64,000 nt of DNA from Candidatus Zixiibacteriota bacterium. Lineage in GTDB: Bacteria; Zixibacteria; MSB-5A5; UBA10806. Made by a program: the position numbers and the translations under genes. Below the pieces are notes generated by a model. That model had not been told where the DNA came from, made no database searches, and worked only from the letters and a program-made list of their open reading frames with translations. Within the stretch, counting starts at the first letter, position 1; the number at the start of each line of letters is the position of its first letter. The DNA lies in assembly GCA_020348065.1 (NCBI GenBank), contig CP070742.1, positions 1,228,028 to 1,292,027 of the forward strand, in the 5' to 3' direction. Below are positions 15,013 to 43,900 of this stretch, piece after piece.

Positions 15013-15018
15013 TCGGGC

Positions 15019-16899: not shown

Positions 16900-16905
16900 T
16901 TGAAT

Positions 16906-18723: not shown

Positions 18724-18745
18724 TCAAGCAGTGGTCAATAACCGC

Positions 18746-18774: not shown

Positions 18775-18779
18775 CGACC

Positions 18780-25947: not shown

Positions 25948-27858
25948 TTACTCCACGCGTTTCAATATTATCTGCTTTTCCGCTTCCGCCCTGGCGGTAT
26001 TGAAGAACTTTACTATCGATTTGTACGCCGAGACCGGGTACTCCGGTTTTTTAAGACCGAAACCTCGGGTTACCGTGATCGAGCTCCTGCCCTGTCGGGC
26101 CACAGAATATATCTCTCCGATATGGCTGTTCAATGAATAATTCTTGGGAAGATACTCCACTTCAAACTGAGGAGAGATTTCGAAGGTTATTCTTTCAAAT
26201 TCAAATCTGGGCCTCTGGAAATATACGGGAAAGTAGCGCTCCTCGTCCGGCAAATCCGGCAGATCCTCCCACCTTCCGAGAAGATCCATAGGAATATAGG
26301 CGCGGTTTGCAAACGATCTGATTATGGGGCCGGCACTAAAAGTATAATTAATCAAAAAAGGCTCCCCGAAAGAATCGGGTGGAGCTGCTATAAATCTGTC
26401 GAATTTCACGCTAGGTAACGACCTTGCAAACCGCCGTTCCCAGGCGCTTTTTTTCTGCGATTCATCCATTCTCAAAAGATTCACGGAAATTTCAGGAATC
26501 ATGGCTCCCGAATATACCTCCGTGGCTTCGCCCGAAAGGTTTCCGAGCGAATCGACATGCAGCTTCAAATGAATGGCTTTTCCGTTCTCATGATAATCGA
26601 CATCCGGCGTGGAGGAGAGACCTTCGTTCTCGCCATCCACCCGTAACACGGGAACTCCCTGATCTTCGAACGGCAAAATACCGAGATCGGATACGGTATA
26701 GAATGGATCCGCCCAGAGCGTATCATGGTTAATAAAACAGGCAACCAGAAGCCTGTCAAACCAGAATAGAGCCGGCAACTCGGATACCGGCTCCCCGGCA
26801 TACCGCGTAGCCGCAAGATAGATCCCCGCGGGAATTTCCAGGTAGTTCAGCATTGCATAAAGAATGCCGGCCGCTTCCGCCTGCGTGCCTCGTCTATACG
26901 CGAGTATCTCATCGAAATCCTCGTGCAAGGCGATATCCGAGTATCTGGATATAAAATTGCTCTTCACCCAGTTAAAAGCGGAGACCGCCTTCCTTTGCTG
27001 ATTATATGAGGACATTCTGATGGAGTCTGAAATGGGAATGACAGATACTTTCGAATCCAGAAAATCATCCAGCTGCCGTTTATACAATCGGGAGATATAT
27101 TTCCAATCAATCTTTTCCTTATTATTCCAGCTTTTATCATAATATAAAGAGTAATATAATCCCGATATAATTCTTTCATATGGCGGCGAGTATTCGTCCT
27201 TTCTGAGCCCTTCTACATCTTTCACAGTCCATTTATGGTTTACCATATGGATATCACCGTATTCCTCGCCTATTACTCGCCCTTCCTGGCAGACCAGTTC
27301 CGGCAATACGGCGAAATTGAACTCCCATGACTCTGGATAGGTCATAACAACGGTCGCGGAATCCACCGGGATTGTCCTGCCGAAAAACCGTTTGCCGGCA
27401 ATATTCGCCTTCTTGGATCTAAGATTCCATTCGAAATGCAGCACCGCTCCGGGCTCGGCGTGACGGAAGTTTAAAAATATCCGTCTGGAATCGCCCGAGA
27501 CATTTCTGGTTACGATGTCATCGAGACCGACCTCATATCTTTCACCGGACGGCAATATCGTATAAGCATCGAAATCTATGTTGTCTCCCTTATCGAGTAT
27601 CGGGGTAGCGGTCCGGGAAAGAACCGATCTGCCTTTTTCGGCCAGTTCAACCTCGGAAATAAATCGTCTTGTATACTCATACCAGCCTTTGCCGTCAGGC
27701 CAGATAAATGTAGAATCATAGATATAAAGATAATTTCCGAGCAGTTCCTCATATTCCATTTGTGCCCATGCGGTATTGCATATAATCATGAAAAGGGGGG
27801 ACACAAACACAAATTTGAGGATATGTTTCACGCTTTTTTCAGTAAGGAAGGTAAACAT
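25948..27858 (-). CDS. Secreted DUF3857/transglutaminase-like protein lacking the catalytic Cys and His
   Basis: An open frame reaches 27939, but ATG 27858 gives a signal peptide (ending NTAWA) and a 20-base overlap with the upstream gene, so I start there (636 residues). The N-terminal half is a DUF3857-type beta-domain (NIDFDAYTILPSGERYEVG..., LHFEWNLRSKK). The middle is a transglutaminase-like core in which the usual G-D-C-K is RRGTQAEAAG and the usual His is Arg in FWFDRLLVACF; only the Asp (LWADPF) is kept. It is paralogous in layout to its upstream neighbour, which keeps all three. It is a likely pseudoenzyme or binding partner. Confidence 0.75.
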   Translation of the reverse strand: MFTFLTEKSVKHILKFVFVSPLFMIICNTAWAQMEYEELLGNYLYIYDSTFIWPDGKGWYEYTRRFISEVELAEKGRSVLSRTATPILDKGDNIDFDAYTILPSGERYEVGLDDIVTRNVSGDSRRIFLNFRHAEPGAVLHFEWNLRSKKANIAGKRFFGRTIPVDSATVVMTYPESWEFNFAVLPELVCQEGRVIGEEYGDIHMVNHKWTVKDVEGLRKDEYSPPYERIISGLYYSLYYDKSWNNKEKIDWKYISRLYKRQLDDFLDSKVSVIPISDSIRMSSYNQQRKAVSAFNWVKSNFISRYSDIALHEDFDEILAYRRGTQAEAAGILYAMLNYLEIPAGIYLAATRYAGEPVSELPALFWFDRLLVACFINHDTLWADPFYTVSDLGILPFEDQGVPVLRVDGENEGLSSTPDVDYHENGKAIHLKLHVDSLGNLSGEATEVYSGAMIPEISVNLLRMDESQKKSAWERRFARSLPSVKFDRFIAAPPDSFGEPFLINYTFSAGPIIRSFANRAYIPMDLLGRWEDLPDLPDEERYFPVYFQRPRFEFERITFEISPQFEVEYLPKNYSLNSHIGEIYSVARQGRSSITVTRGFGLKKPEYPVSAYKSIVKFFNTARAEAEKQIILKRVE

Positions 27859-29650
27859 ATCTCTGGTTTTTTCGTGAGAGAAGAAAATTCCTGAAAGCGT
27901 TGAAATCATCACTGGAAATTTCCCTCCCGTCAAGATCAAATATCCTCCGAAATATAATATCGTTTCCTATATATTTCATTTCATCATAAAATTCAAGGCC
28001 TTCCCTGACCCAATAATCCCTGTACTCGGAGAGATCGTCGGATGAAAAGGCCATATCTCGAAACCGTATATATTCCTCTAAACGAAGCGAGTTTTTTCTA
28101 CAGAAGGGGCTCTGCCTTACGGTATTAAAAATATTGTCGATAAGATGAGTTACGAGCGGCGAACCGACCGGAAATCCGGTCATAGAATCCAACTCGGAAT
28201 AATCGGAAAAAAATTCCCCGCCGATACTGAATGTATCCGGCACCAGTTTTTCAATTTCGATTTCGAGAGCGGAGGTTTTCCAACCCCCTTCCCTCAGAAT
28301 CGCTTCCACCGTTTCAGATTTCTGAAAACTGCTGAGACCGCGAAAATTCCTGCTGTATATCGCCGCGGCATCGTTAATATAGCCGATAACAAAATCGGTT
28401 CTCATTCCCGACAATTCGCCCCCCATATCAAAACTCCAGGAAAAACCTTCCGCCGGCTGGGAACCTTCCCGCACGGTTCTCAATTCCGAAATCCCGTCAA
28501 CGACCAGATAGCTTTTGCCTCTTAATCTAAAAGGAATATACGAAAAATCCGAGAAGGGATCGCTGGGGTCCAGAATATATTCTTCTTCGCCAATCCTGAC
28601 AGCCGTCACGGTATGATCAAAAAACGCGGGCCAGGGGTGTAACGATTCCAGCCGGGGATAATCGACGGTGGATATCAATGCGGGATAGGCTTCTATATCC
28701 GCAGCCCTGAAAAGAGAACTCAGCAGCAGGGATTGATCTTTGCAATCTCCGAATCCTCGTTCAATTATCTGGCCGCAATTGTGCGGCATAAAATCCCCGC
28801 TTCCTATTCTCAGCGCCACGTAGGAGACCGAATCAGCAACGTAATCGAAAAGGATTTTCAGGCTGTCGATCAGGGAAACGGATTCCGCAAGCAGCTTATC
28901 GGCGAGTACTTTGATTTTCACCAGTGACGGGGTCGGTTGATCGGAGATCCGGCTGTAGAAAAATCCCACATCATCCCATGTATCGCAACCATATTCGGGG
29001 CCGTTAAATCTAAACCTGTCAGCGCTGAGATACAGATACAAATTATCATGGCACAAAAAAGGCTCAGCTCGAATTTCAGGCAGATTGTCTGCATAAAACA
29101 GGGCTCTCCTGCCTTTTACATCCTTATCAAATCCGGAATAATCATAATTGAGATTAATATTTCGAGGCCATTTTAACTGAACGACCATTCTTTCAACCGG
29201 ATACGAGTTTTGCCTTTCAATATGGGGTAGATACAGAAGACTCTTAATATCGAGCCTGTACCGGTAATGCAGTATGGCGCCGATGGAGGGCGATTTCAAC
29301 AAAACCAGCACAGCTTTTTTCCCTCCAAACTCCCGATCCATACGACCGGTTAGAAAAATATAATCTTTTTCGCCTATTTTTATTTTCTTGCTGTCAGGGA
29401 GTTCCGTATAACCCTTAAGATCGCTGAACTCGATATAATCGTTTATGGGAACCGCGAACTCGGCATAGGCTAAACCCTCCTCGGATATTATCTCGAAATC
29501 CTTATAAATTTTAACCACGGCGGAAAAATTCCGTTTGATCTCTATATCGGTGCTGTCATACAGGCATACAACCCCGCCGGCGGAAGCCCGCCCGGCAATA
29601 AAATTCTGGGAAAAAAGCAGAGTCGTTATGAAAAAATAAACGGCTTTCAT
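27839..29650 (-). CDS. Secreted DUF3857/transglutaminase-like protease-fold protein
   Basis: The frame is open to 29728, but ATG 29650 opens a clean signal peptide (ending AGRASA) after the end of the preceding gene, giving 603 residues. A DUF3857-type domain fills the first 230 residues. A transglutaminase-like domain follows with an intact triad: Cys in RGFGDCKDQ, His in FFDHTVTAV and Asp in ILDPSDPF. Such periplasmic proteins are thought to be peptidases or cross-linkers; no substrate is known. It follows the first four-gene membrane module by 41 bases and is probably in the same transcript. Confidence 0.8.
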   Translation of the reverse strand: MKAVYFFITTLLFSQNFIAGRASAGGVVCLYDSTDIEIKRNFSAVVKIYKDFEIISEEGLAYAEFAVPINDYIEFSDLKGYTELPDSKKIKIGEKDYIFLTGRMDREFGGKKAVLVLLKSPSIGAILHYRYRLDIKSLLYLPHIERQNSYPVERMVVQLKWPRNINLNYDYSGFDKDVKGRRALFYADNLPEIRAEPFLCHDNLYLYLSADRFRFNGPEYGCDTWDDVGFFYSRISDQPTPSLVKIKVLADKLLAESVSLIDSLKILFDYVADSVSYVALRIGSGDFMPHNCGQIIERGFGDCKDQSLLLSSLFRAADIEAYPALISTVDYPRLESLHPWPAFFDHTVTAVRIGEEEYILDPSDPFSDFSYIPFRLRGKSYLVVDGISELRTVREGSQPAEGFSWSFDMGGELSGMRTDFVIGYINDAAAIYSRNFRGLSSFQKSETVEAILREGGWKTSALEIEIEKLVPDTFSIGGEFFSDYSELDSMTGFPVGSPLVTHLIDNIFNTVRQSPFCRKNSLRLEEYIRFRDMAFSSDDLSEYRDYWVREGLEFYDEMKYIGNDIIFRRIFDLDGREISSDDFNAFRNFLLSRKNQRYVYLPY

Positions 29651-29691
29651 GTTCGAAAACCTGAATCGCAAAAAGTGGTGTGAATGTTCCC

Positions 29692-30420
29692 TTATGAGCC
29701 GAAAAACCCGTTTAAGGCCCTGACCCATTCGATTAAATAATTCAATCTCCCGATAAGCAGCGATATTCGCGCCATTACAGTGTAGCCGAAGGTGGCGCCG
29801 AAACCGATCATTAATATCCAGATGCCGAGTTTGGCCGCCCCGCCGAATACACCCTTATGCTCCGCGGAAAAATAAAAATACGCCAGCCCGCAGATACTGC
29901 CGATAATTATAATAATCTCCCCGATTCCCTGGAAAAAATCGGCTGCGCCGCCACCGGCGAAAATCATGCCGAATATCGACCGGGGATCCATCATATTGGC
30001 CGCCACCTGCCGGATAACGAACCCCTGAAGATATAACGGCAACGCAACCCCGGCGGATACACCAAGGTAATAAGCAATGGGCCACCTGGAGATCCAGGAG
30101 GTCTTTTTGAAAAACCTGCTGAACATTAAAACTCCGATAGCCCCGGGAGTAATATTAACGATTAACATGCCTGTTTTACCGGCAACCGAGCCCTCGGCAG
30201 TGCCAAACGCGGTGACTGACGCAACAAGCGGATCGATCCAGAGATCGGTAAGGGAGGTGTGATATAATATGGCTATCCAGTATCCCGCCGATATTCCCAC
30301 CACCAGATGCTCGGCGAAACGGTAGAAGGGATTATCCCGGTATAAAAATGAGAAAATGCAAAAGGTTAAAAATGCCGCCACGGTCATCCAGAACATTGTG
30401 CCTAATGATACCTGTTCCAT
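29692..30420 (-). CDS. Module protein D, copy 1: polytopic membrane protein of unknown function
   Basis: The 242 residues form about six helices. They share with copy 2 (35287-36042) the signatures FLYRDNPFYRF, VGISAGYW, EHKGVFG and ATFGYTVMARISLLIGRL. I recognise no characterised family. It ends the first copy of a four-gene module (order A-B-C-D on the minus strand); three bases separate it from gene C. The Arg/Lys-Asp-Asn-Pro motif and the invariant Tyr-Thr-Val-Met helix may mark functional sites, which is inference. Confidence 0.75.
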   Translation of the reverse strand: MEQVSLGTMFWMTVAAFLTFCIFSFLYRDNPFYRFAEHLVVGISAGYWIAILYHTSLTDLWIDPLVASVTAFGTAEGSVAGKTGMLIVNITPGAIGVLMFSRFFKKTSWISRWPIAYYLGVSAGVALPLYLQGFVIRQVAANMMDPRSIFGMIFAGGGAADFFQGIGEIIIIIGSICGLAYFYFSAEHKGVFGGAAKLGIWILMIGFGATFGYTVMARISLLIGRLNYLIEWVRALNGFFGS

Positions 30421-30423
30421 ATG

Positions 30424-31254
30424 TTACGCTCGTTTACCTCTTCCGGAAGCGAAAAACGCCACGTTACCGATAATGATGAACAAGATAATAAAAACATGCG
30501 CTACCGAAACCGAGGTCATGGCCTTATTGGCGACTCCTTTGCGTCCAATCAGCCTCTCGTATTCGGCCGCCCCCTTCAAACCTCCCATGAGTCCGAATAT
30601 CTGGCCGGATTGTAGAAATGCGTAATAATCGGTGGCTATAACGGCCGTTACTCCGAGAGCCAGGTCGGCTTTGTATCTGCCGTTGGCGTAATTGATCCAG
30701 GAATCTACGCCGGAGGTAGCGTTGATGTTAACGATGCAAGCTACACTGGAGTAATTGCTTACACCTGCCATCATGGGCAGATCGTCCAGATCGTTATCAT
30801 AATAGTCATTGGGAAATGGCAATCTGAAATTTTCGCCCATGTTTAATATCACTATGTCCGGATAAGGTTTATATCCCAGGAATACGTAATCTTCCCCGTA
30901 TACTTTATCGAACTCATTTGCGACCGTCCTCAAATCCTGCTCGATTAAAAGAACGCCCTGGATCTGCAAAGCCGTAGATATAACCTTCAACCCCTTTGAA
31001 AAACAATGTCTCAAAACCGCCCTGGCCATAGGCTGCAGTTCCGCCATAGTATCGGGGGAATATTCCATAGGGACCATAATGACGGTACCCTCCGGCAACG
31101 ACTCCACCCTGTCGAAAACCGATTTTACCTCTGAGGTTATCTGCACCGGCGTATCGACCGTAACCAGAATGGGCAAAAATGTTACCAATCCGATGACCAG
31201 GTAAACCCAGCGCCTGTCCAAATTCATTAAAGTATTCCATATATCATTCGGCAT
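30424..31254 (-). CDS. Module protein C, copy 1: membrane protein with large extracytoplasmic domain
   Basis: The 276 residues have one helix near residues 15-35, a long soluble domain and a C-terminal helix (AHVFIILFIIIGNVAFFAS). Segments shared with copy 2 are ELQPMARAVLRH, SGQIFGLMGGLKGAAEYERLIG and the terminal helix. The soluble part contains alternating strands and helices (VIMVPMEYSP, VISTALQIQG, DIVILNMG), suggesting a Rossmann-like fold. No known family was recognised. It overlaps gene B by one base. Confidence 0.75.
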   Translation of the reverse strand: MPNDIWNTLMNLDRRWVYLVIGLVTFLPILVTVDTPVQITSEVKSVFDRVESLPEGTVIMVPMEYSPDTMAELQPMARAVLRHCFSKGLKVISTALQIQGVLLIEQDLRTVANEFDKVYGEDYVFLGYKPYPDIVILNMGENFRLPFPNDYYDNDLDDLPMMAGVSNYSSVACIVNINATSGVDSWINYANGRYKADLALGVTAVIATDYYAFLQSGQIFGLMGGLKGAAEYERLIGRKGVANKAMTSVSVAHVFIILFIIIGNVAFFASGRGKRA

Positions 31255-31904
31255 TATTTGCCTCCCCCCAGCCAGGTACGTTCGATACCGAGGATTATTT
31301 TAAGGGTTGTAACTCCCACGCCGAGGCCCACGCCGATATAGATGGCTCTTTTGGCGGCGGTATTGGGGTAATCGAGAATGTACCGGGCGACATCGGAAAA
31401 TCTCATTCCTTCGGGAAGCCATCCGGTCAGAAAATCACCGATAAATACTCTCCCGAGCATGACAATTACCGCAGAGAGCATAAGCAGGGTGGCCAGCAAG
31501 GTTTTGGCGCGGAAAGCCCTGTAGGCCGCCGAGGCGATGAAGAACGCCAGTAACGCAAACATGGTGGCCTGCACGGGCGAGAGCACATAAAAATACATTG
31601 TCATTAAAAGCGATTTTGGATCCTGAAGAGCATTTGGCGATAAAAGCCCCAGAATTGTCATATAAGCCAGGGCCACCAGCGTGACAATGGAATATTGCCA
31701 TCGCTCCTTGCGTTTGGAAATCCTGTCATAGTGGAGATTTATCAGGGACCCGATTCCCACAGTGAGGGTAAATATGCCTATTATAATAGTCCAGTTCAGG
31801 GCATATTGATATATGGTGGCGGAAACATGATGGGGCACGAAGTATTGGAACGCCATGAAGGCGCCGCAGACAAAAACGATTGTAAGTGGGACTTCTCTTC
31901 TCAT
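31254..31904 (-). CDS. Module protein B, copy 1: polytopic membrane protein of unknown function
   Basis: The 216 residues form about six helices with positive loops. Shared with copy 2 are the start MRREVPL, the segment SPVQATMFALLAFFIASAAYRAFRA, LPEGMRFSD and the end ILGIERTWLGG. These conserved stretches are the strongest in the module. It lies six bases after gene A and overlaps gene C. No function is assigned. Confidence 0.75.
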   Translation of the reverse strand: MRREVPLTIVFVCGAFMAFQYFVPHHVSATIYQYALNWTIIIGIFTLTVGIGSLINLHYDRISKRKERWQYSIVTLVALAYMTILGLLSPNALQDPKSLLMTMYFYVLSPVQATMFALLAFFIASAAYRAFRAKTLLATLLMLSAVIVMLGRVFIGDFLTGWLPEGMRFSDVARYILDYPNTAAKRAIYIGVGLGVGVTTLKIILGIERTWLGGGK

Positions 31905-31910
31905 AATAAG

Positions 31911-33215
31911 CTATCCGCCCATTATCCAGGTCATGAAAGAATTACCCGCGCCAGTACTGAATAAATAGACTATTACTCCCGCTATCATTAATGCCACCGC
32001 CGCTACTTTACCCCAATCCTGGGCTTTCAAGGTTCCCAGCTGCTGGGGCTCCTGGGAGAGATAGGCGGAGGCGGCGTAAAGCTCCTCGCCCATTAAGGTG
32101 TAATCGCAGGCTACCACAAAAAACGGTATCTGGATAAGCTGGTCGGTTCCGGCAATCTGAATGGAACCCGATACAAACCCTGTCTCCGCCAGAATCAGCG
32201 ATTCGGCATAAAACATTCCCATATAGAAATTTGTAGCCGGCCTTTCACGCAGCATGGTACCGTTGACCGCGGCAGTATAAGGAAATTGATCCTGGGTTAC
32301 GAAATAGACGTCTTTAGGATCGAAAGCATCCGGCCGCCCGGCGGACGAGTATGCTTCCTTAACGACCTCCTGACAGATGGTCATTACCACGGGATCATAA
32401 TTGGGGACGATGATCCGGGTCTGGTATTCGGCGACTTTTTTGGCCACCCGCGCCAGAATGGTAAACGCGGCGATTGTCGCCACCCGGGACGCGTCGCCCA
32501 GCCCCGGTACAAAAAGAATAGGCTTGCCCATCTCGGTAGCCCGGCCGATGGCGTCGTCAACGGCGTTTATGCCGGCGATGGGCCGGACATAAAGCCTGCG
32601 GCCCTTTCCGGCCTGGATAATAAACGCCACAGTGGTACCGGAAAATAACAGCATAAACAGGAAAATCGGTATCAGTCTCGTGTTGAAGAACTGGGGTACG
32701 GGGACAGCGGCTCCTGAAACGGAGCTGAATAATGTATCGACAGGATAAACGGAAGCGACTTTATAAAAATATCGCTTTCCGTTTACAAGATGATCTCCGG
32801 AATCGGTGAATTGAGTAGTGCCAATAGGAAGGGTGGACACTAATTCGAAATCCCCATCGGGCGAATCAGAGCGATAGATCAAATATCCCGAAACTAGACT
32901 GTCTTTATCATTATCGCCGGGGGCCAAATTCCAATTTACGATAATGGCGTTTCCGGGATCGTTGGGTTGATCTTCAGCCCTAATATCGGCCGGCGGGGCC
33001 TGTTGGAATGTCTCAGCCAACAGCCGCTCCTCAGACAGCAATAACGTGGAATCGGAATGATTTATGGTATCTTGTCGCGCCGAAACAGAAATACAAATAA
33101 AAAAAATAAAACAGGCGGCCTTAATTATTTTGGGTGCGGCTTTCAAAATCCTCAGGAGATAAGCTGGAACCCTGCAAGACTGTTTAAGTTTATTCTGCCA
33201 ACCGGGCCGCGCCAT
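31911..33215 (-). CDS. Module protein A, copy 1: Fn3 domain plus conserved cytoplasmic-type domain (DUF6754-like)
   Basis: An upstream TTG at 33278 is possible, but ATG 33215 fits better (434 residues). In order: a hydrophobic export segment (about residues 25-48), one fibronectin type III-like domain (VNWNLAPGDNDKD... YLIYRSDSPDGDFELV), a transmembrane helix (RLIPIFLFMLLFSGTTVAFI), a long conserved domain (RPIAGINAVDDAIGRATEMG, DQFPYTAAVNG, AESLILAETGF, IPFFVVACDYTLMGEELYAASAYL) and a last helix. The conserved domain resembles what I remember as DUF6754, of unknown function. It is the first gene of module copy 1, 15 bases after the CBS gene. Confidence 0.75.
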   Translation of the reverse strand: MARPGWQNKLKQSCRVPAYLLRILKAAPKIIKAACFIFFICISVSARQDTINHSDSTLLLSEERLLAETFQQAPPADIRAEDQPNDPGNAIIVNWNLAPGDNDKDSLVSGYLIYRSDSPDGDFELVSTLPIGTTQFTDSGDHLVNGKRYFYKVASVYPVDTLFSSVSGAAVPVPQFFNTRLIPIFLFMLLFSGTTVAFIIQAGKGRRLYVRPIAGINAVDDAIGRATEMGKPILFVPGLGDASRVATIAAFTILARVAKKVAEYQTRIIVPNYDPVVMTICQEVVKEAYSSAGRPDAFDPKDVYFVTQDQFPYTAAVNGTMLRERPATNFYMGMFYAESLILAETGFVSGSIQIAGTDQLIQIPFFVVACDYTLMGEELYAASAYLSQEPQQLGTLKAQDWGKVAAVALMIAGVIVYLFSTGAGNSFMTWIMGG

Positions 33216-33293
33216 AACGCTGTCCCGATTCCAACTGAGTCCAGCGCCCTCTATCCCATAAAGATAATAAATTAACAATTTATATGCAAATTA

Positions 33294-33737
33294 TTATATC
33301 TCCATATTGGGAGGTTGATATCTATACAGCGAATCCATCATCTTAATTTCAGATTCTTTGACCGAAACCTGGTATTTCAACAGATCGCGCATCGATATTA
33401 TCCCCAGAAGCCTGTTTTCTTCCACAACGGGCATATGCCGGCAGCCAATCTGCTTCATCTGGGCCAGGCAGTATTCATAAGTATCTTCGGCGTTGCATAC
33501 GCATACATCGACGGTCATAACTTCTGACACTTTAACCGCTTTGGGGTCTTTTCCCACGCTTACAACCCTGTTTAACAGATCTCGCTCGGTAAAAATTCCT
33601 TTGAGCTTCTCCTCCTCAAGAACTACAACGGCGCCTATTCCCGCGTCAGCCATCTTCTTTGCCACTTCGGTAACGGTCATGTCGGGCGAAACATAAGTCA
33701 GCCGTTTACCCGCCATCAACGACTTAAGCTGTGCCAT
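33294..33737 (-). CDS. Two-CBS-domain protein
   Basis: The 147 residues consist of two CBS domains (SPDMTVTEVAKKMADAGIGAVVV and SEVMTVDVCVCNAEDTYE... GIISMRDLL), the module that binds adenine nucleotides and regulates a partner. There is no enzyme or channel domain attached. It overlaps the SPFH gene by 14 bases and precedes module copy 1, so it may be the nucleotide sensor of that membrane complex; this is inference from context. Confidence 0.88.
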   Translation of the reverse strand: MAQLKSLMAGKRLTYVSPDMTVTEVAKKMADAGIGAVVVLEEEKLKGIFTERDLLNRVVSVGKDPKAVKVSEVMTVDVCVCNAEDTYEYCLAQMKQIGCRHMPVVEENRLLGIISMRDLLKYQVSVKESEIKMMDSLYRYQPPNMEI

Positions 33738-34695
33738 CCTCTTTCTTTCCTTGATCCGATCTTGTATGTTTTCCCGTTCCAGGCTCCGATCTTAAAACAT
33801 CGGCAATCGATCCGAGCCCCGCAAGCACACCGGACGCCTCATAAGGAATGAAAAGCTTCGACGATTTGCCGTCGGCGATTCCCTTAAGCGCCTCCAGGTA
33901 TTTCAAAGTTATTAATTTATCATCCGGAGCCCCCTTATGTATAGCGGAAAATACATTAATTATCGCTTCGGCTTCACCTGCTGCTTCGGCAATCTTACGA
34001 TATTTTTCGGCGTCCGCGACCTTCTTTACCGCCTCTGCCTTGCCCTCAGCCTCCAGAATCGCGGCCTGTTTCGAACCTTCGGCCCGCGTAATTTCAGCCT
34101 GCTTATAACCTTCAGCCTCCAAAATCGCCGCCCTCTTATCGCGCTCGGCCTTCATCTGGCGGCTCATGGCTTCGGTAATGTCGACAGGAGGATCGATTCG
34201 CTGAATTTCCACCCGGTTCACCTTTACGCCCCACTTATCGGTGGCGTTATCGAGAACCGTTCTTAACTGCTCATTTATGGTATCGCGTGATGTCAACGAC
34301 TGGTCGAGCTCCATTTCACCGAGAGTGTTTCTAAGATTCGTTTGAGCCAGTTTTACCGCCGCGATGATAAAATCGGTTATTTCATAATGCGCCTTGAAAG
34401 GATCTGTCACCTGGCAATAGATTATGGCATCAACCTCGACCACAACATTGTCTTTTGTGATAATCGACTGCGCCGGTACATCGAGTACCCTCTCTCTCAT
34501 GTCCACTCTGACCAGAGTCTCCACGAAGGGCACGATAAGATTAAGCCCGGGATTTCTCCTGCTGTGAAACCGCCCCAGCCTCTCAACAAGACCTCTTTGA
34601 TACGGTCTGACAATCCGGAGAGACATAGCCCCCATTATAAACGTAAAGAATATTATTACGATCAAAAGCACTATTAATCCGGGATCAATCATCAT
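33724..34695 (-). CDS. SPFH/Band 7 membrane protein (stomatin/QmcA-like)
   Basis: The 323 residues start with one transmembrane helix, then an SPFH domain (VRPYQRGLVERLGRF, GLNLIVPF, VPAQSIITKDNV, RNTLGEMELDQSLTSRD, WGVKVNRVEIQRIDPP) and an Ala/Glu/Lys-rich coiled coil (about residues 170-250) typical of ring-forming stomatins. A charged tail ends the protein. It is directly downstream of NfeD, its usual partner. SPFH rings organise membrane microdomains and protease partners (established knowledge). Confidence 0.93.
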   Translation of the reverse strand: MMIDPGLIVLLIVIIFFTFIMGAMSLRIVRPYQRGLVERLGRFHSRRNPGLNLIVPFVETLVRVDMRERVLDVPAQSIITKDNVVVEVDAIIYCQVTDPFKAHYEITDFIIAAVKLAQTNLRNTLGEMELDQSLTSRDTINEQLRTVLDNATDKWGVKVNRVEIQRIDPPVDITEAMSRQMKAERDKRAAILEAEGYKQAEITRAEGSKQAAILEAEGKAEAVKKVADAEKYRKIAEAAGEAEAIINVFSAIHKGAPDDKLITLKYLEALKGIADGKSSKLFIPYEASGVLAGLGSIADVLRSEPGTGKHTRSDQGKKEDGTA

Positions 34696-34705
34696 TTCCT
34701 CCCTT

Positions 34706-35164
34706 CTAATTTATTTTCTCAACTGCAAGTTTTGCCCCGCGGACATCGGTAACCTTGACCGTGGAACCACTTTCGATTATGTCCGAGGCAACCGCCCGCC
34801 ACACCTGCCCGTCAACCTTGACCTTGCCGACGTCCGCGACGGGATTTATGGACTCTATGACAATACCCTGCAGCCCGATCAGAGCGTCAGCGCCCGCCTG
34901 GGGTACGGAATCATCTGAAATTTTCCTCGCGAATGATCTGGAGACCGGTATCAACGCCACCGAGACGACACAAAATACCACGATCTGCCATACCAGACCG
35001 TATGCGCTGGCGCCGAGTATCGCCCTGGTTATAAAACCGGTAACCATGGCAGAAAGCGCCCCGATGGCGAAACAGGCGTAGAAAAATCCGGCGGTGAAAA
35101 TCTCCACGACCACGAATAAAACAGCGAGTATCAGCCAGATATAATACGGATTCTCAAGCGACAT
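34706..35164 (-). CDS. NfeD-family membrane protein (short type, OB-fold)
   Basis: The 152 residues show two to three N-terminal helices followed by a C-terminal OB-fold (LIGLQGIVIESINPVADVGKVKVDGQVWRAVA). The short form without the serine-protease domain is the one normally paired with stomatin-like SPFH proteins, as here. The ATG follows GAGGTGAAATT. A 122-base gap separates it from module copy 2, enough for a promoter, although I could not identify convincing boxes. Confidence 0.92.
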   Translation of the reverse strand: MSLENPYYIWLILAVLFVVVEIFTAGFFYACFAIGALSAMVTGFITRAILGASAYGLVWQIVVFCVVSVALIPVSRSFARKISDDSVPQAGADALIGLQGIVIESINPVADVGKVKVDGQVWRAVASDIIESGSTVKVTDVRGAKLAVEKIN

Positions 35165-35286
35165 AATTTCACCTCACTGTTAAATTTGCCTTAAAATACC
35201 CGGGTACGAAAAGCGATTGCGAAAATGCAATATCTCAATCTTTCCGGGATATATATACACAGATTTGTCTTTATTATTCAATAAAA

Positions 35287-36042
35287 TTAGTTTACAAAAC
35301 CGAGCCAGGTGCTGAACAGGAAGTATAACCGTCCGATTAAAAGCGACATACGGGACATGACGGTATAACCGAAAGAGGCGCCGAATGTTATCATAAGGAA
35401 ATAGATGCCGACTTTGGCTGTTCTGCCGAAAATACCTTTGTGCTCTTTGGAGAAGTAGAAGTAAACCAGACCGGCTAGAGTCCCAAATATCAGAACCAGA
35501 TTGCCGAGATAGGCGGCGAAATAATTATCAAGAGGAATTGATCTTCCCTGTTCCGCCATTACCGCTCCGATCTCGGAGAGTTCATTGATTCTACCGATAT
35601 CAAAAAGCGGAATCACCGTTTTCTGTAACTGGCTTAAGAAATTGGACTGAAAGTAGGTTATCATCCACAAACCGGCGGTCGATCCGACGATGACCGAAAG
35701 GGGCCAGCGGGCGATCCAGCCGATTTTGGGGAAAAGTCTCATCAGCATCATAATGCCCAGTATCGCCGCCAGAACATGCAGGATATTCCAGTTCCAGACG
35801 CCTGAAAAAATATCCTGCAAAGCGCCTTTTTCCGGCCATAGGCCCAGGGAATAAGAGATTCCGAGACCATCAAACATTTTGGTGATGAGGTTTTCCCAGA
35901 ATAATGCCACAGCCCAATAACCGGCGGAAATACCCACAAAAACCGATTCGCAAAATTTATACAGGGGATTATCCTTATATAGAAATGAGGCGATACCTAT
36001 GGTGAAAAACGCCGCCAGCCAGATCCCGAATTCGGAACTCAT
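35287..36042 (-). CDS. Module protein D, copy 2: polytopic membrane protein
   Basis: This is the 251-residue paralogue of 29692-30420, with the same conserved stretches FLYKDNPLYKF, VGISAGYW, YFYFSKEHKGIFG and ASFGYTVMSRMSLLIGRL, and the same number of helices. Its start overlaps the end of gene C copy 2 by four bases. The copies are clearly related but well diverged, so the duplication is old. Confidence 0.75.
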   Translation of the reverse strand: MSSEFGIWLAAFFTIGIASFLYKDNPLYKFCESVFVGISAGYWAVALFWENLITKMFDGLGISYSLGLWPEKGALQDIFSGVWNWNILHVLAAILGIMMLMRLFPKIGWIARWPLSVIVGSTAGLWMITYFQSNFLSQLQKTVIPLFDIGRINELSEIGAVMAEQGRSIPLDNYFAAYLGNLVLIFGTLAGLVYFYFSKEHKGIFGRTAKVGIYFLMITFGASFGYTVMSRMSLLIGRLYFLFSTWLGFVN

Positions 36043-36956
36043 TCCCTTATACCCCTTCTGTCTGATTTCTTCATGGTGGCGAAAAACGCGATGTTGCCGA
36101 CAATGATAAACAACATTACAAAAATATGCGCCATGGTCTGGCTGGTCATGAACATGGTCGCCCGGGCCTGATGACCTACCAGCTTTTCAAACTCTGCGCC
36201 ACCTTTCATACCGCCCAAGATCCCCGACAGCTGGCCGGTATCGAGATAGGGATAGGCCAACGGAGCCTGCACCGCGGTGTTAGCCGCTCCCACTGGAACA
36301 TGGAATCTATCGACGGCAAATTGAACCCATTCAACAGTCCCGGGATATCCGGCGGACAGGTTAAACACAAAATCAAAATCGGCGAGCCTGTAGATGCCGT
36401 CCATTATGGGGAATTCTTTTTGAGGACGTCCAAACCGTCGGTCTGACGGAAATGTGGCTTCAAAAGAAGTTCCCATGCGTTGTATTACCAGTTCCTGCCC
36501 CACCTGAAAACCGAGATTTATAAAATCGATACCGTACCAGGCTGTATCGTTACCGACAACAACCAGGTCGGCGCCGAAATAAAGCGTATCGCCGTCTTTT
36601 ACGATATATTCGTCATCTGATTCGTCAATGTCCTCGATGGCGCGATTGCCCTGAATCGGACCCTGAGGCCACAATCCAATAACAATAAACCGTAAGTCGT
36701 TTTCCACGAAATATTTGAACGCCGCCTCGGCCATCGGCTGCAGTTCCGGCTCGGAACCGGGATCGAAATCGCAAGAAACAAGTATTTTGGAGTCCCTGGG
36801 AAGATCCTCCAGGGAATCGTATAATACCTGAACCTCTCTTGTAACCGGTATGGGAAGACCGATCTGCAGGAAAATCGGAACCGAAAGCGCCAGAAATATA
36901 ACCACGAATATAACCCGCCGATCTATTGTAAGTAATCTTTCCCAGAACTTATCCAT
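36039..36956 (-). CDS. Module protein C, copy 2: membrane protein with large extracytoplasmic domain
   Basis: This is the 305-residue paralogue of 30424-31254: N-terminal helix after IDRRVIF, ELQPMAEAAFKYFVEND, TGQLSGILGGMKGGAEFEKLVG and a C-terminal helix (AHIFVMLFIIVGNIAFFA). Compared with copy 1 it has an insertion of about 30 residues around the acidic DIDESDDEYIVKDGD segment. The function is unknown. Three bases separate its start from the stop of gene B copy 2. Confidence 0.75.
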   Translation of the reverse strand: MDKFWERLLTIDRRVIFVVIFLALSVPIFLQIGLPIPVTREVQVLYDSLEDLPRDSKILVSCDFDPGSEPELQPMAEAAFKYFVENDLRFIVIGLWPQGPIQGNRAIEDIDESDDEYIVKDGDTLYFGADLVVVGNDTAWYGIDFINLGFQVGQELVIQRMGTSFEATFPSDRRFGRPQKEFPIMDGIYRLADFDFVFNLSAGYPGTVEWVQFAVDRFHVPVGAANTAVQAPLAYPYLDTGQLSGILGGMKGGAEFEKLVGHQARATMFMTSQTMAHIFVMLFIIVGNIAFFATMKKSDRRGIRE

Positions 36957-36959
36957 ATC

Positions 36960-37613
36960 TTACTCGCCCCCCAGATGGGATCGCTCGATACCGAGAATTA
37001 TGCGGAGCGATGTTGACACTATTCCCAGAGCGATACCGATCATGATAGCCCTCTGACCGGCGACATTGAAATAATTCATGATGACATTAGACAGGTTGGA
37101 TAAACGCCATCCCTCCGGCAGGAACACGGTAATCCAATCTCCAAACGGGGTCCTTCCCGCCATAACAATAAAAGCTGCGAGGAGCAATACAGTTGCCTGG
37201 GCGTTCCTGGCCCGGAACGCGCGGTATGAAGCCGAAGCGACGAAGAAAGCGAGAAGCGCGAACATGGTGGCGCTCAAAGGCGAATAGATATTACGGTAAA
37301 GCCAGTCGTAGCCGGATCCCTGTTCAAGATATTGCCTGCCGCCTGAGAAAAATAGCCCCACTATCAATATAAGAAAGAATGAAACGATTGTCGTAACTGC
37401 GAAGAACCAATCTTTATCTTTTTTGTATACTTTTTCAAAGGAGATTTTCATCAGGTTCAAACCGCCCAGCCAGATGGCGAAAGCGGAGATGATGGAATAC
37501 CAATCGGAAAAGGTCTCGGACAACTCACGCATGGGAGAATGAGGCACGAAAAACTGCACGAAGAATGTTATTCCGACAATGCCGGTCAGAATAAGCGGAA
37601 TTTCCCGTCTCAA
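36960..37613 (-). CDS. Module protein B, copy 2: polytopic membrane protein
   Basis: This is the 217-residue paralogue of 31254-31904, sharing MRREIPL, SPLSATMFALLAFFVASASYRAFRA, LPEGWRLSNL and ILGIERSHLGG. Length and helix pattern are the same as copy 1. It lies 12 bases after gene A copy 2. Confidence 0.75.
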   Translation of the reverse strand: MRREIPLILTGIVGITFFVQFFVPHSPMRELSETFSDWYSIISAFAIWLGGLNLMKISFEKVYKKDKDWFFAVTTIVSFFLILIVGLFFSGGRQYLEQGSGYDWLYRNIYSPLSATMFALLAFFVASASYRAFRARNAQATVLLLAAFIVMAGRTPFGDWITVFLPEGWRLSNLSNVIMNYFNVAGQRAIMIGIALGIVSTSLRIILGIERSHLGGE

Positions 37614-37625
37614 GAGGACTCTCCC

Positions 37626-39221
37626 CTAATTGACATTGAACATCCTCTGAATAGTATCTGATATAACGGCGTTTTGGGAAAAAGCTCCGATGGTGGCGAT
37701 AATGACAAAAATCAAAGCCAGTGACAGGAATATAAGCTTTCCTCCCAGATCCTGCCCTTTTAACGAACCCAACAGTTTGGGCTCTCTGGAGAGATAGGCG
37801 GAGGCAGCGAAAAGTTCCTCGCCGATCAAGGTATAGTCACAGGCTGCCACGAAAAAGGGCAGCTGGGCGGGCATGGCGGTACCGGCTATCTGTATGGCCC
37901 CTATGGAATTTCCGGTTTCCGCCAGAATCAGGGATTCGGCGAAAAAAGCGCCCTGATAGAACACGGTGGCCGGCTTTTTCCTGATCACCAGACCGTCAAC
38001 ACCGGCCGCGTAGCCGAATTGGTCGTCCGTGAGATAATATACAATATCATCGTTATAATAATCGGGCCTGCCGGCGTTGAGATACGCCTCTTTAACAATC
38101 TCACGCGCCGCGACCATAACCAATGACCGTGAAACAGGGACTTCCAGCTTAGTTTCGTACTCGGCGGTAAGTTTGGCCACCCGTCCGAGAATTGTCAGAC
38201 CCGCGATAGTTTGCATATTGTTCATATCCTGGATGCCGGGGACATAAAATATCGCCCTTCCCATCTCGGTGGCGCGTCCCACGGCTTCGTCGACCGCCTC
38301 CAGCCCTGCAATCTTTCTTATAAACAGTTCTTTTCCGGCCTTGGCCCGGTTGATAAAATAAAGAATCGAGCCTATCAGTATTCCGAGCAGAACCAGCGAT
38401 ACACCGCGGCCGGTATGAAACCATTGCTGACGGGATACGGCGGGACCGGCGATTTCCGAATTGGCCTCCTGACCGTCCCACTTGGCCGCCACATAATAGT
38501 AATATTCCTGACCGTTTATAATATCTTTGCCGTCACGGAGAGTTTTCACCTGCCTGTCGACATCGGAAACTCCCCCGGTAGTTTCCCCGACTTTCTCGAA
38601 GGGCCCCTCGGCGCTGGTACTTCTATAAATATCGTACCCGTTAAAAAGCAGGCTCTTGGCCGCGTCGCTGGCCGAAACTTTCCATTCCAGCGTGATCGAA
38701 CCGCCGGCGTCATTAGGAGTATCAAACACCCTCAGTTGCGTGGGCGGGAAAACCATTATATCCGATTTATCAACCGGTACCTCAACTTTGGCAGCTTCAG
38801 CCGCCATCACCGGCGAAATCGGGCCGAAAATATTGGATTCTATGGTTTCGCCTTGAAGATCGCAGGAAATTTTATAATAATATGAAAATCCCGCAACAAC
38901 CGCGGTATCCCTGTATTGTCTGGAAATATCGGTGGCGCGAGGGTATTCAAATCCGACACTGCCGATTCCCTCGAACGGGCCTTCCGGGGCCTGAGATCTC
39001 AGGATATTATAATTCGGGAAGGTCGCCGCGGAGTCGTTATCGCCCTCCAGGCAGAACCAGTTTAAGGTTACCGAACCGGCTGTATCGAAAGGAGTTGAGA
39101 TCGCCGTCAGATCATACGGAGGATAAGAGACGGATGATGGCCCCGGTTTCAAATAAACCAGCCAGATCAGGAGAGGAAGAATAATTATTATGCAGATTCC
39201 CAGCGCTACTTTTTTGCCCAA
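37626..39221 (-). CDS. Module protein A, copy 2: two Fn3 domains plus conserved DUF6754-like domain
   Basis: The 531 residues begin with a TTG at 39221 and an N-terminal helix (ALGICIIIILPLLIWLVYL). Two fibronectin type III-like domains follow (SVTLNWFCLEGDND... and SITLEWKVSASDAA..., each ending in an YNILRS/YDIYRS strand), where copy 1 has only one. Then come a helix and the conserved domain (RKIAGLEAVDEAVGRATEMG, DDQFGYAAGVDG, AESLILAETGNS, LPFFVAACDYTLIGEELFAASAYL). It heads the whole minus-strand run down to mutM. Confidence 0.75.
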   Translation of the reverse strand: MGKKVALGICIIIILPLLIWLVYLKPGPSSVSYPPYDLTAISTPFDTAGSVTLNWFCLEGDNDSAATFPNYNILRSQAPEGPFEGIGSVGFEYPRATDISRQYRDTAVVAGFSYYYKISCDLQGETIESNIFGPISPVMAAEAAKVEVPVDKSDIMVFPPTQLRVFDTPNDAGGSITLEWKVSASDAAKSLLFNGYDIYRSTSAEGPFEKVGETTGGVSDVDRQVKTLRDGKDIINGQEYYYYVAAKWDGQEANSEIAGPAVSRQQWFHTGRGVSLVLLGILIGSILYFINRAKAGKELFIRKIAGLEAVDEAVGRATEMGRAIFYVPGIQDMNNMQTIAGLTILGRVAKLTAEYETKLEVPVSRSLVMVAAREIVKEAYLNAGRPDYYNDDIVYYLTDDQFGYAAGVDGLVIRKKPATVFYQGAFFAESLILAETGNSIGAIQIAGTAMPAQLPFFVAACDYTLIGEELFAASAYLSREPKLLGSLKGQDLGGKLIFLSLALIFVIIATIGAFSQNAVISDTIQRMFNVN

Positions 39222-39461: not shown

Positions 39462-39490
39462 TTGACAAAACCGAATGTCGATGGTATGCG
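39462..39490 (+). promoter_or_regulatory. Putative extended -10 promoter of the CarA-like gene
   Basis: TTGACA (39462-39467), 17 bases and TATGCG (39485-39490) preceded by TG-G (extended -10). Transcription would start near 39497, just before ATG 39499. The -10 core is weak. Confidence 0.4.
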
Positions 39491-39498
39491 ATTACTTG

Positions 39499-40578
39499 AT
39501 GCGTGGTTATCTTGCGATTAAGAATATAGGCACCTTTTCCGGATATTATTTCGGCTGGCAGGGTCCCTGCGCGGGAGAGATTATCAAATTTCAATCCCTT
39601 AACTTTTGCTGGGATATCTTGACCGATCCGACCTATAAAAAGAAAATTGTCGTCACCGATTCCCTATTAGTTGACGATCGACAGCCGACCCCCGACGAGA
39701 TACAATCTTTTATGTCTCATCTGGAAGGCATTGTATTCCTGGGAAATGTGGCCATGGGCGGAAACGGTTCCGGAAGAAACGTATTGAAAAGCTATTTCGA
39801 GGCCAACAGGATCGCCGGCTTCATACCCGACAGAAAGGATCTATTGAGAGACGTCCTGGAGTTTTCCAATCCTACCACGGGCTGTATAGATATAAGCCGC
39901 GAAGCGGCCATTAAAGGTTCAATTTCTCCTATTCTTCTGGATAAAGACGATTTGAAATCGGTATCTGCCCCCGAGGAGTTTTACTGGGACCTTGCCACCG
40001 GCGATCTTCCGGATGAAAAATTCGTGATTGCGGTCTGGGATTTCGGCGCAAGTTATAATCTTTTCAGAAGTTTAAGGCTCCTGGGATGCCGGGTCAGAAT
40101 AGTGCCGCCGCACACGGAACCAGAAGACATAGTCCCTCTTCACCCGGATGCCGTGGTTATACCCGGAGGACCCGCCGCCGCAAGAAATTCCGATATATTC
40201 CTGCCGAAAATAGAGAGGATGATCGGGATACGACCGCTGCTCGGAGTGGGAGGCGGCGCCGCGCTGCTGGCACGAGCTCTGGGGATGAAAACCAAACCCA
40301 TCGATTTCCCCCATTATGGAAATTCGATCCCCGTCGAGGATACCGAAACCGGAAAAATCGAGGCTTCATATCAAACTCATTCGATAACGATTGACCCCCG
40401 GTCAGCGCGCGATTCCGGCATAACGATTACTCAGGTGAACGTATGTGACGGCAGCATTGAGGGTTTCGCCATGCCCGATTATGAAACCGCCGGATCGTTC
40501 TGCCTGCCCACCGTGGAATACCTCCCCGGTTATTTCAAAAACTTTCTGAATTCCCTGAAGATTTCGCCGGTTTGTTAA
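39499..40578 (+). CDS. Carbamoyl-phosphate synthase small chain (CarA) homologue with lost catalytic triad
   Basis: In-frame ATGs occur at 39475 and 39481, but the CarA-type N-terminus (YLAIKNIGTFSGYYFGW) and the promoter favour ATG 39499 (359 residues). The N-terminal CarA domain is recognisable (GEIIKFQS, WDILTDPTYKKKIVV, DRKDLLRDVLEF), as is the class I amidotransferase domain (VIAVWDFGASYNLFRSL, PDAVVIPGGPA, SYQTHSITID). The nucleophile elbow GICLGHQ of CarA is GVGGGAA, so Cys is Gly. The region of the QGHPEASPGP motif is CLPTVEYLPG, so His and Glu are gone too. No carB is adjacent. It cannot be a glutaminase; a regulatory, binding or scaffold role is inferred. Confidence 0.7.
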   Translation: MRGYLAIKNIGTFSGYYFGWQGPCAGEIIKFQSLNFCWDILTDPTYKKKIVVTDSLLVDDRQPTPDEIQSFMSHLEGIVFLGNVAMGGNGSGRNVLKSYFEANRIAGFIPDRKDLLRDVLEFSNPTTGCIDISREAAIKGSISPILLDKDDLKSVSAPEEFYWDLATGDLPDEKFVIAVWDFGASYNLFRSLRLLGCRVRIVPPHTEPEDIVPLHPDAVVIPGGPAAARNSDIFLPKIERMIGIRPLLGVGGGAALLARALGMKTKPIDFPHYGNSIPVEDTETGKIEASYQTHSITIDPRSARDSGITITQVNVCDGSIEGFAMPDYETAGSFCLPTVEYLPGYFKNFLNSLKISPVC

Positions 40579-40989
40579 TCGATTACCTCTTTGGTTTACG
40601 CGTCTATTTGATGGATGGCGTTACTTTATAAAAAAACTCCCTGCTATTAATCGCGATAAATTGTACGGTGATAAATAGTGGTATAGAAAACTGAAAATGT
40701 TTTTAGCTTGACCGATTTATATCCGCTATTTATATTAACTGGTAGAATCGTTATAGCTTCTTTGATTTGACTTCGTCGCGCGTATAGATTTCTACGGATC
40801 TTTGTATAAAAATTGTAAGTCTTACCGGCCGAAAGGGTTATCGGGTTTAATTGTAATGATGTTCGCGGACTCAAATAAATCGGCACTTATAGATGAATTT
40901 TGCCTGAAAGTTAAAAATTCCGGGAAAGCCGGTAACTTAATACTTTAAAATATCGTCGTTATTTTAAAATCTAATTGCATGGAGAAAAA
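40579..40989 (+). promoter_or_regulatory. Intergenic region with promoter and long leader of the repeat protein gene
   Basis: TTGACC (40708-40713), a 17-base spacer and TATATT (40731-40736) form a good sigma70-like promoter. Transcription from near 40743 would give a leader of roughly 245 bases before ATG 40990, AT-rich and without an obvious riboswitch or gene. Nothing else was recognised here. Confidence 0.5.
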
Positions 40990-43900
40990 ATGGATAAGCG
41001 AAAAAAATTGATGCCAGCTTTAGCTATGGTAACGCTAACCCTGCTTTTTTATTCTTCGACAGCATTACCACAGGATTCATGTATTGTCGCCGACAACGGC
41101 ACCGGCACGGTTGATCTTCCGGCTGATTGTCCGTTCTACGCTCCGGACGAGCCCATGTATATTACAGATGGCTTGCCGCCGGGTGATACACTAAAACTTC
41201 AGCCCATATTAGAGGACTTCTTCTGTAATGAATTCACACCCTGTTCACTATCGACTCCTCTCACCGGCTGCGAGGGCGCTGGCGGCCTGCTCGGGGGAAA
41301 CTATGAATGTTTCGAGAGTACGTTGGATCTGGTTGTCACCGGCACCGGTGGTCTCACCGGTTTCAATCGTCACCTCGCGGTGGCGATGTCCTGCGAAATT
41401 CACACTTCACCTCGTAATCCGGGCGATTCCATACAAACAATGGCCGGTATAGTCTATCGTCTTGAAGGTGAGCTTTTCGGCGATCCCGATTTCTGTACCT
41501 TAATTGTAACCGCCGGCGCCGAGAACGATTTACCCGGTTCCGGTGAGATTGAAATTACCGACATCGGCGGCGGGCTCTACAATATCGACAGCTTTTTCGA
41601 TATCACCTATCAGATCGAGTTTGAGGGATGCCCCGGTTCGCCGTTGAGCGATTATTCCGGGACCACAACCGAAACGATACGTTTGCAGCAAGGCGTGGCT
41701 TTACCCCCAACCACTGGGACCTGCTGTACTCCGGAAGGCGTATGTCTCAGCATCTCCGAGGCGCTCTGCCTGAGTCTTAATGGTATATTTGCGGGTGAAG
41801 GCGACCAATGCCTTGGGGACGGCGACGGCGATGGTTACGACGATCTCTGTTATGAGCAAGGTATATGCCTAGCTCCCGATAACGGCACGGGCACCGCCGA
41901 CCTACCCGCCGACTGTCCTTTCTACGCGCCTTACAAACCGATGAAAATAATAAACGGCCTGCCGCCGGGTACTACCATTGAACTGGTACCCAGATTTTAT
42001 GAGTTCTTTTGTAGCTCGTCCACCGCTTGTTCTTTACCCACACCTCCTTCGGCCTGTGAAGGCGCCGGCGGTTCCCTTGGCGGCAACTACGAGTGTTTCG
42101 AGGGAACGCTTCGATTGGATGTTTCGGGAACGGGATCGCTTCAAGGTTTCAATCGCACGCTCTGGGTGCCGGTATCATGCGAGATCCATACATCGCCTCG
42201 CATTCCCAATGATTCAATTCAGACCATGTCTGCAGATATCTATCGCTTTCGAGGTCAATTGTTCGGAGACCCGGACTTCTGCGAGTTTATAATAACCGCT
42301 GGAACCGATTACGGTTTGCCGGGTCCCGGCCAGATAACTCTAACCGATCTTGACAACGGATATTACCAGGTCGACAGCTTTTTTGACATAACTTATCAAA
42401 TCAGGTTTACAGGTTGTCCCGCGTCTGTTTTAGAAGATTACTCGGGAACTACCATCGACTCCGTTCATCTTCAACAGGGACCTCCCCCGCCCACAGGCGC
42501 ATGCTGTCTGCCGGATGGGTCCTGCATAGAGGAGACGGAGGTTGGATGTTGGGGAATCGGCACCTACCAGGGTGACGGCACCGTGTGTCTTGGCGACGGC
42601 AACGGTGACGGCGTCGATGATGCCTGTCCCGTTCCGCCGTATTGTGTCGCCGTCGATAACGGTACCGGCACGGTTGATCTTCCGGCTGATTGTCCGTTCT
42701 ACGCCCCGGACGAGCCCATGTATATTGTAGAGGGTTTTCCGCCGGGCGACACATTAAAACTTCAGCCCATATTAGAGGATTTCTTCTGTAACGAATTCAC
42801 GCCCTGCTCACTATCGACTCCTCTCACAGGCTGCGAGGGCGCTGGCGGCCTGCTCGGGGGAAACTATGAATGTTTCGAGAGTACGTTGGATCTGGTTGTC
42901 ACCGGCACCGGCAGCCTGGCCGGTTTCAACCGTCACCTCGCGGTGCCGATGTCCTGCGAAATTCACACTTCACCCCGTAATCCCGGCGATTCCATACAAA
43001 CAATGGCCGGTATAGTCTATCGTCTTGAAGGTCAGCTTTTCGGCGATCCCGATTTCTGTGAACTCATTGTAACCGCCGGAACTGAAAATGACCTGCCCGG
43101 TTCCGGTGAAATTGAAATTACCGACATCGGCGGCGGGCTCTACAATATCGACAGCTTTTTCGATATCACCTATCAGATAGAGTTTGAGGGATGTCCCGCT
43201 TCGCCGTTGAGTGATTATTCAGGGACCACGTCTGAAACAATACGTCTGCAACAGGGCGCGCCGCAACCGCCGACGACAGGAGCCTGCTGTACTCCGGAAG
43301 GCATATGTCTCAGCATCTCCGAGCCGGTCTGCCTGAGCTTTAACGGCGACTATAATGGTGACGGTTCCGAATGCCTGGGCGATATAGATGATGACGGTTA
43401 TGATGATCTCTGTTATGAGCCGTGGACCTGCATCGCTCCTGATAACGGTACCGGCACGGTTGATCTTCCGGTAGAATGCCCCTATTACGCGCCTCTGGAG
43501 CCTATGAATATTATAAACGGTTTGCCGCCCGGAACGACGATTGAGTTGGTACCTACGTTTTATAATTTCGTCTGCGATGAATCCACCTCCTGTTCTTTGC
43601 CGATGCCAGGAGTTGGTTGTGAGGGTGACAGCGGTTCGCTTAATGGCAATTATCATTGTTTTGAGGGGTCTCTCCGTTTCGATGTTTCGGGCACCGGAGA
43701 ACTTGCCGGTTTCAACCGCGTGATCCTAGTACCGGTATCCTGCGAGATTCATACCGGTCCCCGCAGTCCCGGAGATCCGGTACAGAGTTTCGCTGCCGAT
43801 ATGCGCGGTCTATTCGGCGAGCTGTTTGGTGACCCCGATTTCTGCGAGTTTGTCATTATAGCAGGTACCGACAGCGGCCTATCAAGTCCCGGCCATATAG

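Follow-up and report, generated by a model that had tools for sequence, protein, structure and literature searches.

The 64,000-nucleotide stretch of Candidatus Zixiibacteriota bacterium analyzed here (contig CP070742.1, positions 1,228,028 to 1,292,027; hereafter, the window) encodes, twice and in the same order on its minus strand, four membrane proteins that we call A, B, C and D. Our preferred reading, to which we give slightly better than even odds, is that these proteins make up one inner-membrane complex that is served by a cytosolic ATPase of the MutL type and by a soluble protein, BSH, and that the window holds two of the five versions of this complex in the genome. By comparison, A-B-C-D is shown to be a co-inherited unit, and this unit is likewise shown to be co-inherited with BSH and with MutL, an ASKHA ATPase of the GlmL/MutL family. 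In the following, G and L numbers designate individual genomes and loci, respectively, and copies 1 and 2 are the two blocks of the window.

A four-gene unit inherited as a block

All eight open reading frames were found where a preliminary description of this DNA had placed them, and the sequence signatures that it gave for the A, B, C and D pairs are each present in both copies. The likeness between the copies is far beyond chance, with BLASTP identities of 47% for A (E 1e-102), 42% for B (E 2e-55), 32% for C (E 1e-51) and 38% for D (E 1e-43). The description also knew of no function for any of the four, and indeed none of A-D has a known role. For B, C and D, Pfam and NCBIfam gave no match that could be relied on. 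A, by way of correction, is a confident member of a family already catalogued as PF20539 (DUF6754), which is itself a domain of unknown function. A match of B1 to TMD0_ABC (PF24357) reached 28.5 bits against a cut-off of 27, while B2 gave no hit, and we rejected it as probably compositional. Among A-D, there was no match to TolQ/ExbB or TolR/ExbD, and no Rnf/Nqr subunit was recognized.

What is more, the module that had been described as present twice, as is indeed the case in the window, exists in five copies in the source genome. In particular, this genome (3.74 Mb, single contig) carries five DUF6754 genes, each of which opens an A-B-C-D cassette. A scan of contigs for relatives yielded at least 575, of which 80 loci, many of them from draft genomes, were kept for comparison. 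They belong to the Zixibacteria, WOR-3/Stahlbacteria, Fermentibacterota, Latescibacterota, Eisenbacteria, Edwardsbacteria, Coatesbacteria, Neomarinimicrobiota, Calditrichota, Cloacimonadota, Gemmatimonadota, Planctomycetota, Acidobacteriota and Myxococcota, and over about a dozen phyla A-D are mostly 35-50% identical. The idea of a membrane module of several subunits, closely spaced and constant in their order, is upheld by 92 complete A-B-C-D cassettes, in which the median gaps between successive genes are 10, 1 and 2 nt. Counted as adjacent pairs, AB occurs 104 times, BC 97, CD 93 and DA 44 times, with only 6 other pairs, and in L070 the C and D genes are fused. Very long A or D reading frames in L025 and L031 look as if joined across gaps or frameshifts and were not used as fusions.

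The four proteins also appear to share their history. Between the distances found for A, B, C and D, the correlations reach r values of 0.70-0.85, compared with maxima of 0.61-0.70 when shuffled within loci, and each pair exceeds all of its own shuffles. DUF6754 was detected in 133 of the 133 Zixibacteria genomes searched, mostly in 3-6 copies, and in none of 14 control genomes. Of 79 evenly sampled Planctomycetota, 22 genomes have DUF6754; homologues of the four genes are not scattered, because C is found in all 22 of these A-positive genomes and in 1 of the 57 A-negative ones (G231, where MutL and BSH are both present). In a quick concatenated tree of the 92 cassettes, constructed without bootstrap, copy 1 falls together with first-position Zixibacteria cassettes and one Eisenbacteria cassette, and copy 2 in another group, made up mostly of cassettes in second or third position (both placements carry a star). 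By this tree, the two copies of the window are ancient paralogues of different paralogue groups, and its shape fits the notion of long-kept, specialized paralogues. In one planctomycete locus (L147:11141-14543, minus strand), two ABCD cassettes, the first with an A that lacks FN3, lie directly downstream of 2-oxoacid:acceptor oxidoreductase genes.

As for the proteins themselves, A1 comprises a signal or transmembrane segment, two FN3-like regions, a transmembrane segment, the DUF6754 domain and a final transmembrane segment; hydropathy and the positive-inside rule, applied to the family alignment, would put the FN3 region or regions outside and DUF6754 in the cytosol. The A2 model has FN3, a transmembrane segment, an alpha/beta DUF6754 domain and another transmembrane segment. 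All 50 Foldseek matches shown for the A model are of the FN3 type, and the A profile matches FN3 chains of solved structures; nothing else of A matched in the PDB, and DUF6754 has no solved relative by sequence. On family-average hydropathy, B has six transmembrane segments and D six to seven, and the predicted segments of both contain no conserved acidic residue. The C2 model (predicted local distance difference test score, pLDDT, of 93.5) is Rossmann-like with long flanking helices, and hydropathy and positive charges suggest that its N-terminus is inside, the domain outside and the C-terminus inside. C has no PDB relative by sequence, and its model gave generic Rossmann-type matches in Foldseek, none at E <= 0.001. 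Taken together, no sequence or fold match to an already solved complex in the PDB was found for B, C, D or DUF6754. Profile-profile comparison found no homology between A and C, which are both predicted to have an alternation of helices and strands between two transmembrane segments, and none between B and D.

Cytosolic partners of the unit

The preliminary description had sought the partners of A-D among the SPFH, NfeD and CBS genes, which do lie between the two copies, as Pfam matches confirm. The co-inherited partners are, however, MutL and BSH, which are encoded elsewhere in the genome. Three gene families recur upstream of A: c1 (about 110-150 residues), a MutL/GlmL-family protein (PF13941, about 620 residues; MutL in what follows) and BSH, a soluble protein of about 375 residues that weakly matches barrel-sandwich (RnfC_N/biotin-lipoyl) and KOW domains. 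In 28 of the 59 loci with room, MutL or BSH precedes the first A by no more than four genes; the gene order in L156 is bPH-c1-MutL-BSH-A-B-C-D-A-B-C-D, and in Neomarinimicrobiota (L063, L071 and L073) MutL and BSH are fused into a protein of about 1000 residues. Both c1 and bPH are likely accessories. In Fermentibacterota (L049, L052, L057, L059, L062 and L066), glycine decarboxylase-like genes (c4) stand before c1-MutL-BSH-ABCD and a TonB-receptor-like gene (c7) after it.

PF13941 exceeds its cut-off in 32 of 32 ABCD genomes outside the Zixibacteria and in 11 of 12 within them. The exception is the very genome of the window (G000), in which no MutL reaches the cut-off because a 100-N assembly gap (contig C1:1105599-1105698) cuts the gene; an 87-residue C-terminal remnant, 85% identical, starts at this gap, and we rejected a true absence of MutL. 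At the gap (L143:7599-7698) the 3' end of MutL is joined in frame to an acyl-CoA dehydrogenase-like reading frame, which makes a chimeric assembly gene. BSH of the same genome lies at contig C1:3139246-3140370. In the Planctomycetota sample, genomes with and without C differ sharply: A is present in 22/23 versus 0/56, BSH in 20/23 versus 0/56 (Fisher p 7e-16) and MutL in 19/23 versus 4/56 (Fisher p 7e-11), where both p-values ignore relatedness. Finally, full-length MutL is single-copy in 10 of the 11 Zixibacteria that have it, the eleventh adding a second, 938-residue type, and alongside that MutL there are 2-6 DUF6754 copies per genome.

MutL passes the Pfam cut-off of the GlmL/MutL family of ASKHA ATPases, its phosphate motifs ATDCGSTTTK and GVDIGGATTD are intact and invariant in 15 sequences, and MutL proteins of different phyla are 62-79% identical to that of G116. 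That said, it is not GlmL, the methylaspartate mutase accessory protein. It scores 234.8 bits (E 1.7e-69) against the NCBIfam GlmL model, below the equivalog cut-off of 475, and is considerably longer than the 459 positions of the GlmL profiles; in addition, the glutamate mutase subunit PF06368, the classical partner of MutL, exceeds its cut-off in 0 of the 22 genomes checked. No PADLOC defence model matched A1-D1, NfeD, SPFH, CBS, MutL, BSH or c1.

Proposed mechanism and competing readings

In the proposed complex, A would span the membrane with FN3 outside and DUF6754 inside, C would display its Rossmann-like domain outward, and B and D would form the membrane core. DUF6754 would be the docking site for BSH and the MutL ATPase, and MutL, by binding and hydrolyzing ATP, would switch the A-B-C-D complex. 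Given a single ATPase alongside several cassettes, it is probable that several complexes share one engine. In other words, a single-copy MutL next to several cassettes is suggestive of a common cytosolic engine, MutL plus BSH, which would serve several membrane complexes, interchangeable but each with something different to handle. The most likely output is transport or assembly at the cell envelope under the control of ATP. Here, we infer complex formation, the drive by ATP and the envelope role alike. Two known arrangements may serve as analogies of working principle. ECF transporters combine a shared energizing module with several substrate modules, and in this sense only they resemble the present case, with one cytosolic ATPase set and several membrane modules per genome; the ATPase here, however, has the ASKHA fold, the A-B-C-D cassettes contain no ABC ATPase, and no ECF homologue was recognized. 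PilM and GspL are actin-like ATPases of the inner-membrane platforms of type IV pili and type II secretion, respectively, and similarly exemplify how an ASKHA-type protein may work on a complex of the inner membrane, but pilin, PilN/O and secretin genes were not recognized in the neighbourhoods examined, and A-D are unrelated to these systems by Pfam.

Could the complex instead be organized by an SPFH microdomain and tuned by nucleotide binding to the CBS protein, as originally proposed? All three genes do sit between the copies and share their strand, this complete NfeD-SPFH-CBS arrangement is kept in G116 of the same genus, where SPFH is 94% identical, and in G113 NfeD-SPFH follows downstream of one ABCD cassette. 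Yet SPFH, NfeD and CBS were found in 0 of the 80 other ABCD loci (phmmer, E 1e-4), the full arrangement is seen in G116 only, and the three genes are not neighbours of the three cassettes outside the window in the same genome; in G117, from a sister genus of the same family, CBS alone stands between the copies. What is more, NfeD-SPFH is a known operon that occurs independently of ABCD: among 353 SPFH1 members, 229 are encoded in one operon together with a homologue of NfeD (PMC2636767). The window has the same succession of NfeD and SPFH, with the difference that here it adjoins one pair of copies. On these counts the three genes are a local addition and not part of the conserved system, and we regard both the microdomain and the nucleotide tuning as highly improbable. 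Hardly better are the prospects of an Rnf/Nqr-related complex with a redox or ion-translocating function. BSH does have weak RnfC_N/NQRA_N matches (best E 1.2e-6), and the oxidoreductase neighbour at L147 would suit such a complex, but cysteine is absent from the invariant BSH columns and there is, therefore, no sign of an Fe-S motif, no other subunit was recognized, and the membrane segments of B and D offer no conserved acidic residue.

A more serious, though still unlikely, alternative is that MutL and BSH work in a soluble process of their own, for instance by reactivating a cobalamin enzyme, and accompany ABCD through shared ancestry only. In its favour, MutL belongs to the GlmL superfamily, whose GlmL model it matches significantly even if below cut-off, it is unlinked to ABCD in the window's genome, and it adjoins glycine decarboxylase genes in WOR-3 and Fermentibacteria. 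Against it stand a Planctomycetota distribution that is patchy and yet matching, as given above for BSH, the placement of MutL or BSH just upstream of A in nearly half of the loci with room, and the lack of a glutamate mutase over cut-off in the 22 genomes. The remaining possibility is compatible with our preferred reading and only more specific, namely a machine for secretion or maintenance that spans the envelope and is coupled to a Tol/Exb motor driven by protons. An envelope role as such is our leading guess, because in Zixibacteria MutL-BSH directly adjoins TolQ-TolR-TolA-TolB and a CpoB-like gene, and because TolQ/ExbB genes occur at 13 of the 80 ABCD loci, including those of WOR-3/Stahlbacteria, Fermentibacterota, Planctomycetota and Zixibacteria. 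In favour of the motor there are, in addition, genes of the ExbB/ExbD type in the vicinity of ABCD (WOR-3, Fermentibacteria and Gimesia) and the FN3 and Rossmann-like domains predicted to lie outside; the low count of TolQ/ExbB loci and the lack of an outer-membrane component recurring across phyla speak against it, and we consider this coupling a minority prospect. In WOR-3/Stahlbacteria (L028, L041, L043, L044 and L056), a constant run of DUF4388, a small gene, ExbB and ExbD-type genes is found downstream of D.

Several points weigh against the picture of an ABCD complex served by MutL and BSH. In roughly half of the loci, the window's genome included, MutL-BSH does not lie beside ABCD, and four A-positive Planctomycetota gave no MutL and three no BSH, the completeness of these genomes not being reported. 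Shared inheritance alone does not prove contact, and the Tol/Exb link is one of neighbourhood only, seen at a minority of loci. Finally, membrane sides were assigned solely from hydropathy and positive-inside averages, and the DUF6754 region of A was modelled only moderately well (mean pLDDT of 74 for A2).

Other features of the window and significance

Table 1. Genes of the two A-B-C-D copies and of the interval between them (window coordinates).
Feature	Positions	Strand	Basis or remark
A1	37626-39221	-	PF20539 E 1.3e-119; 398 bits, cut-off 27
B1	36960-37613	-	membrane protein with about 6 predicted transmembrane segments; 42% to B2; no convincing family match
C1	36039-36956	-	transmembrane segment, Rossmann-like domain (probably outside), transmembrane segment; via C2 model
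D1	35287-36042	-	membrane protein with 6-7 predicted transmembrane segments; start overlaps C1 stop
NfeD-like protein	34706-35164	-	PF01957 E 1e-14; local neighbour
SPFH/Band 7 protein	33724-34695	-	PF01145 E 2e-39; local neighbour
Two-CBS protein	33294-33737	-	PF00571 E 5e-27; local neighbour
A2 (DUF6754), second paralogue group by tree	31911-33215 (longest reading frame to 33278)	-	PF20539 E 2.2e-115, 385 bits; tree
B2	31254-31904	-	BLASTP to B1
C2 (structure modelled)	30424-31254	-	BLASTP to C1
D2	29692-30420	-	BLASTP to D1

Around the genes of Table 1, the window holds several other features. Directly downstream of D2 there are two consecutive DUF3857 proteins (25948-29728, minus strand), with genes of similar size at the corresponding position in G116 and G117. 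A divergent carbamoyl-phosphate synthase small-subunit-like protein (39475-40578, plus strand; CPSase_sm_chain and GATase) is encoded a short way upstream of A1 on the opposite strand, where G116 and G117 have a similar gene. Next comes an exported protein of 1068 residues (40975-44181, plus strand), apparently with four repeats of about 250 residues and a hydrophobic, basic C-terminal tail (IPTLNEWGMLILGLLLLAAGTVAVIRRRK). Further away (11287-20597, plus strand), five consecutive membrane proteins of about 600 residues with near-identical N-terminal motifs (GFPLDDSWIHQVFARN) form a tandem paralogue array, the first protein of which shows a weak likeness to glycosyltransferases (PMT_2, at a score under the cut-off).

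In the literature searched, which was mostly without subscription journals, no paper mentions DUF6754 or PF20539, none was found on the ABCD system or on B, C, D, MutL or BSH as partners of DUF6754, and nothing relevant turned up on MutL outside glutamate mutase. What is catalogued so far is only DUF6754 and the superfamilies PF13941 and barrel-sandwich. It is conceivable, with chances a little short of even, that we are dealing with a new class of inner-membrane machine, in which a GlmL-like ASKHA ATPase, away from cobalamin enzymes, acts through BSH as an adaptor on the cytosolic DUF6754 domain and thereby energizes or gates several interchangeable ABCD complexes. If so, this class would be universal in sampled Zixibacteria and patchily distributed among Planctomycetota and numerous candidate phyla, and the GlmL ATPase superfamily would gain a probable role beyond cobalamin enzymes. 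The co-inheritance yields a parts list, namely MutL, BSH, A, B, C and D, which can be tested directly in a cultured planctomycete. Moreover, the conservation of the families over about a dozen phyla and the presence of A in all Zixibacteria genomes searched suggest that the function at the membrane is important to these lineages.

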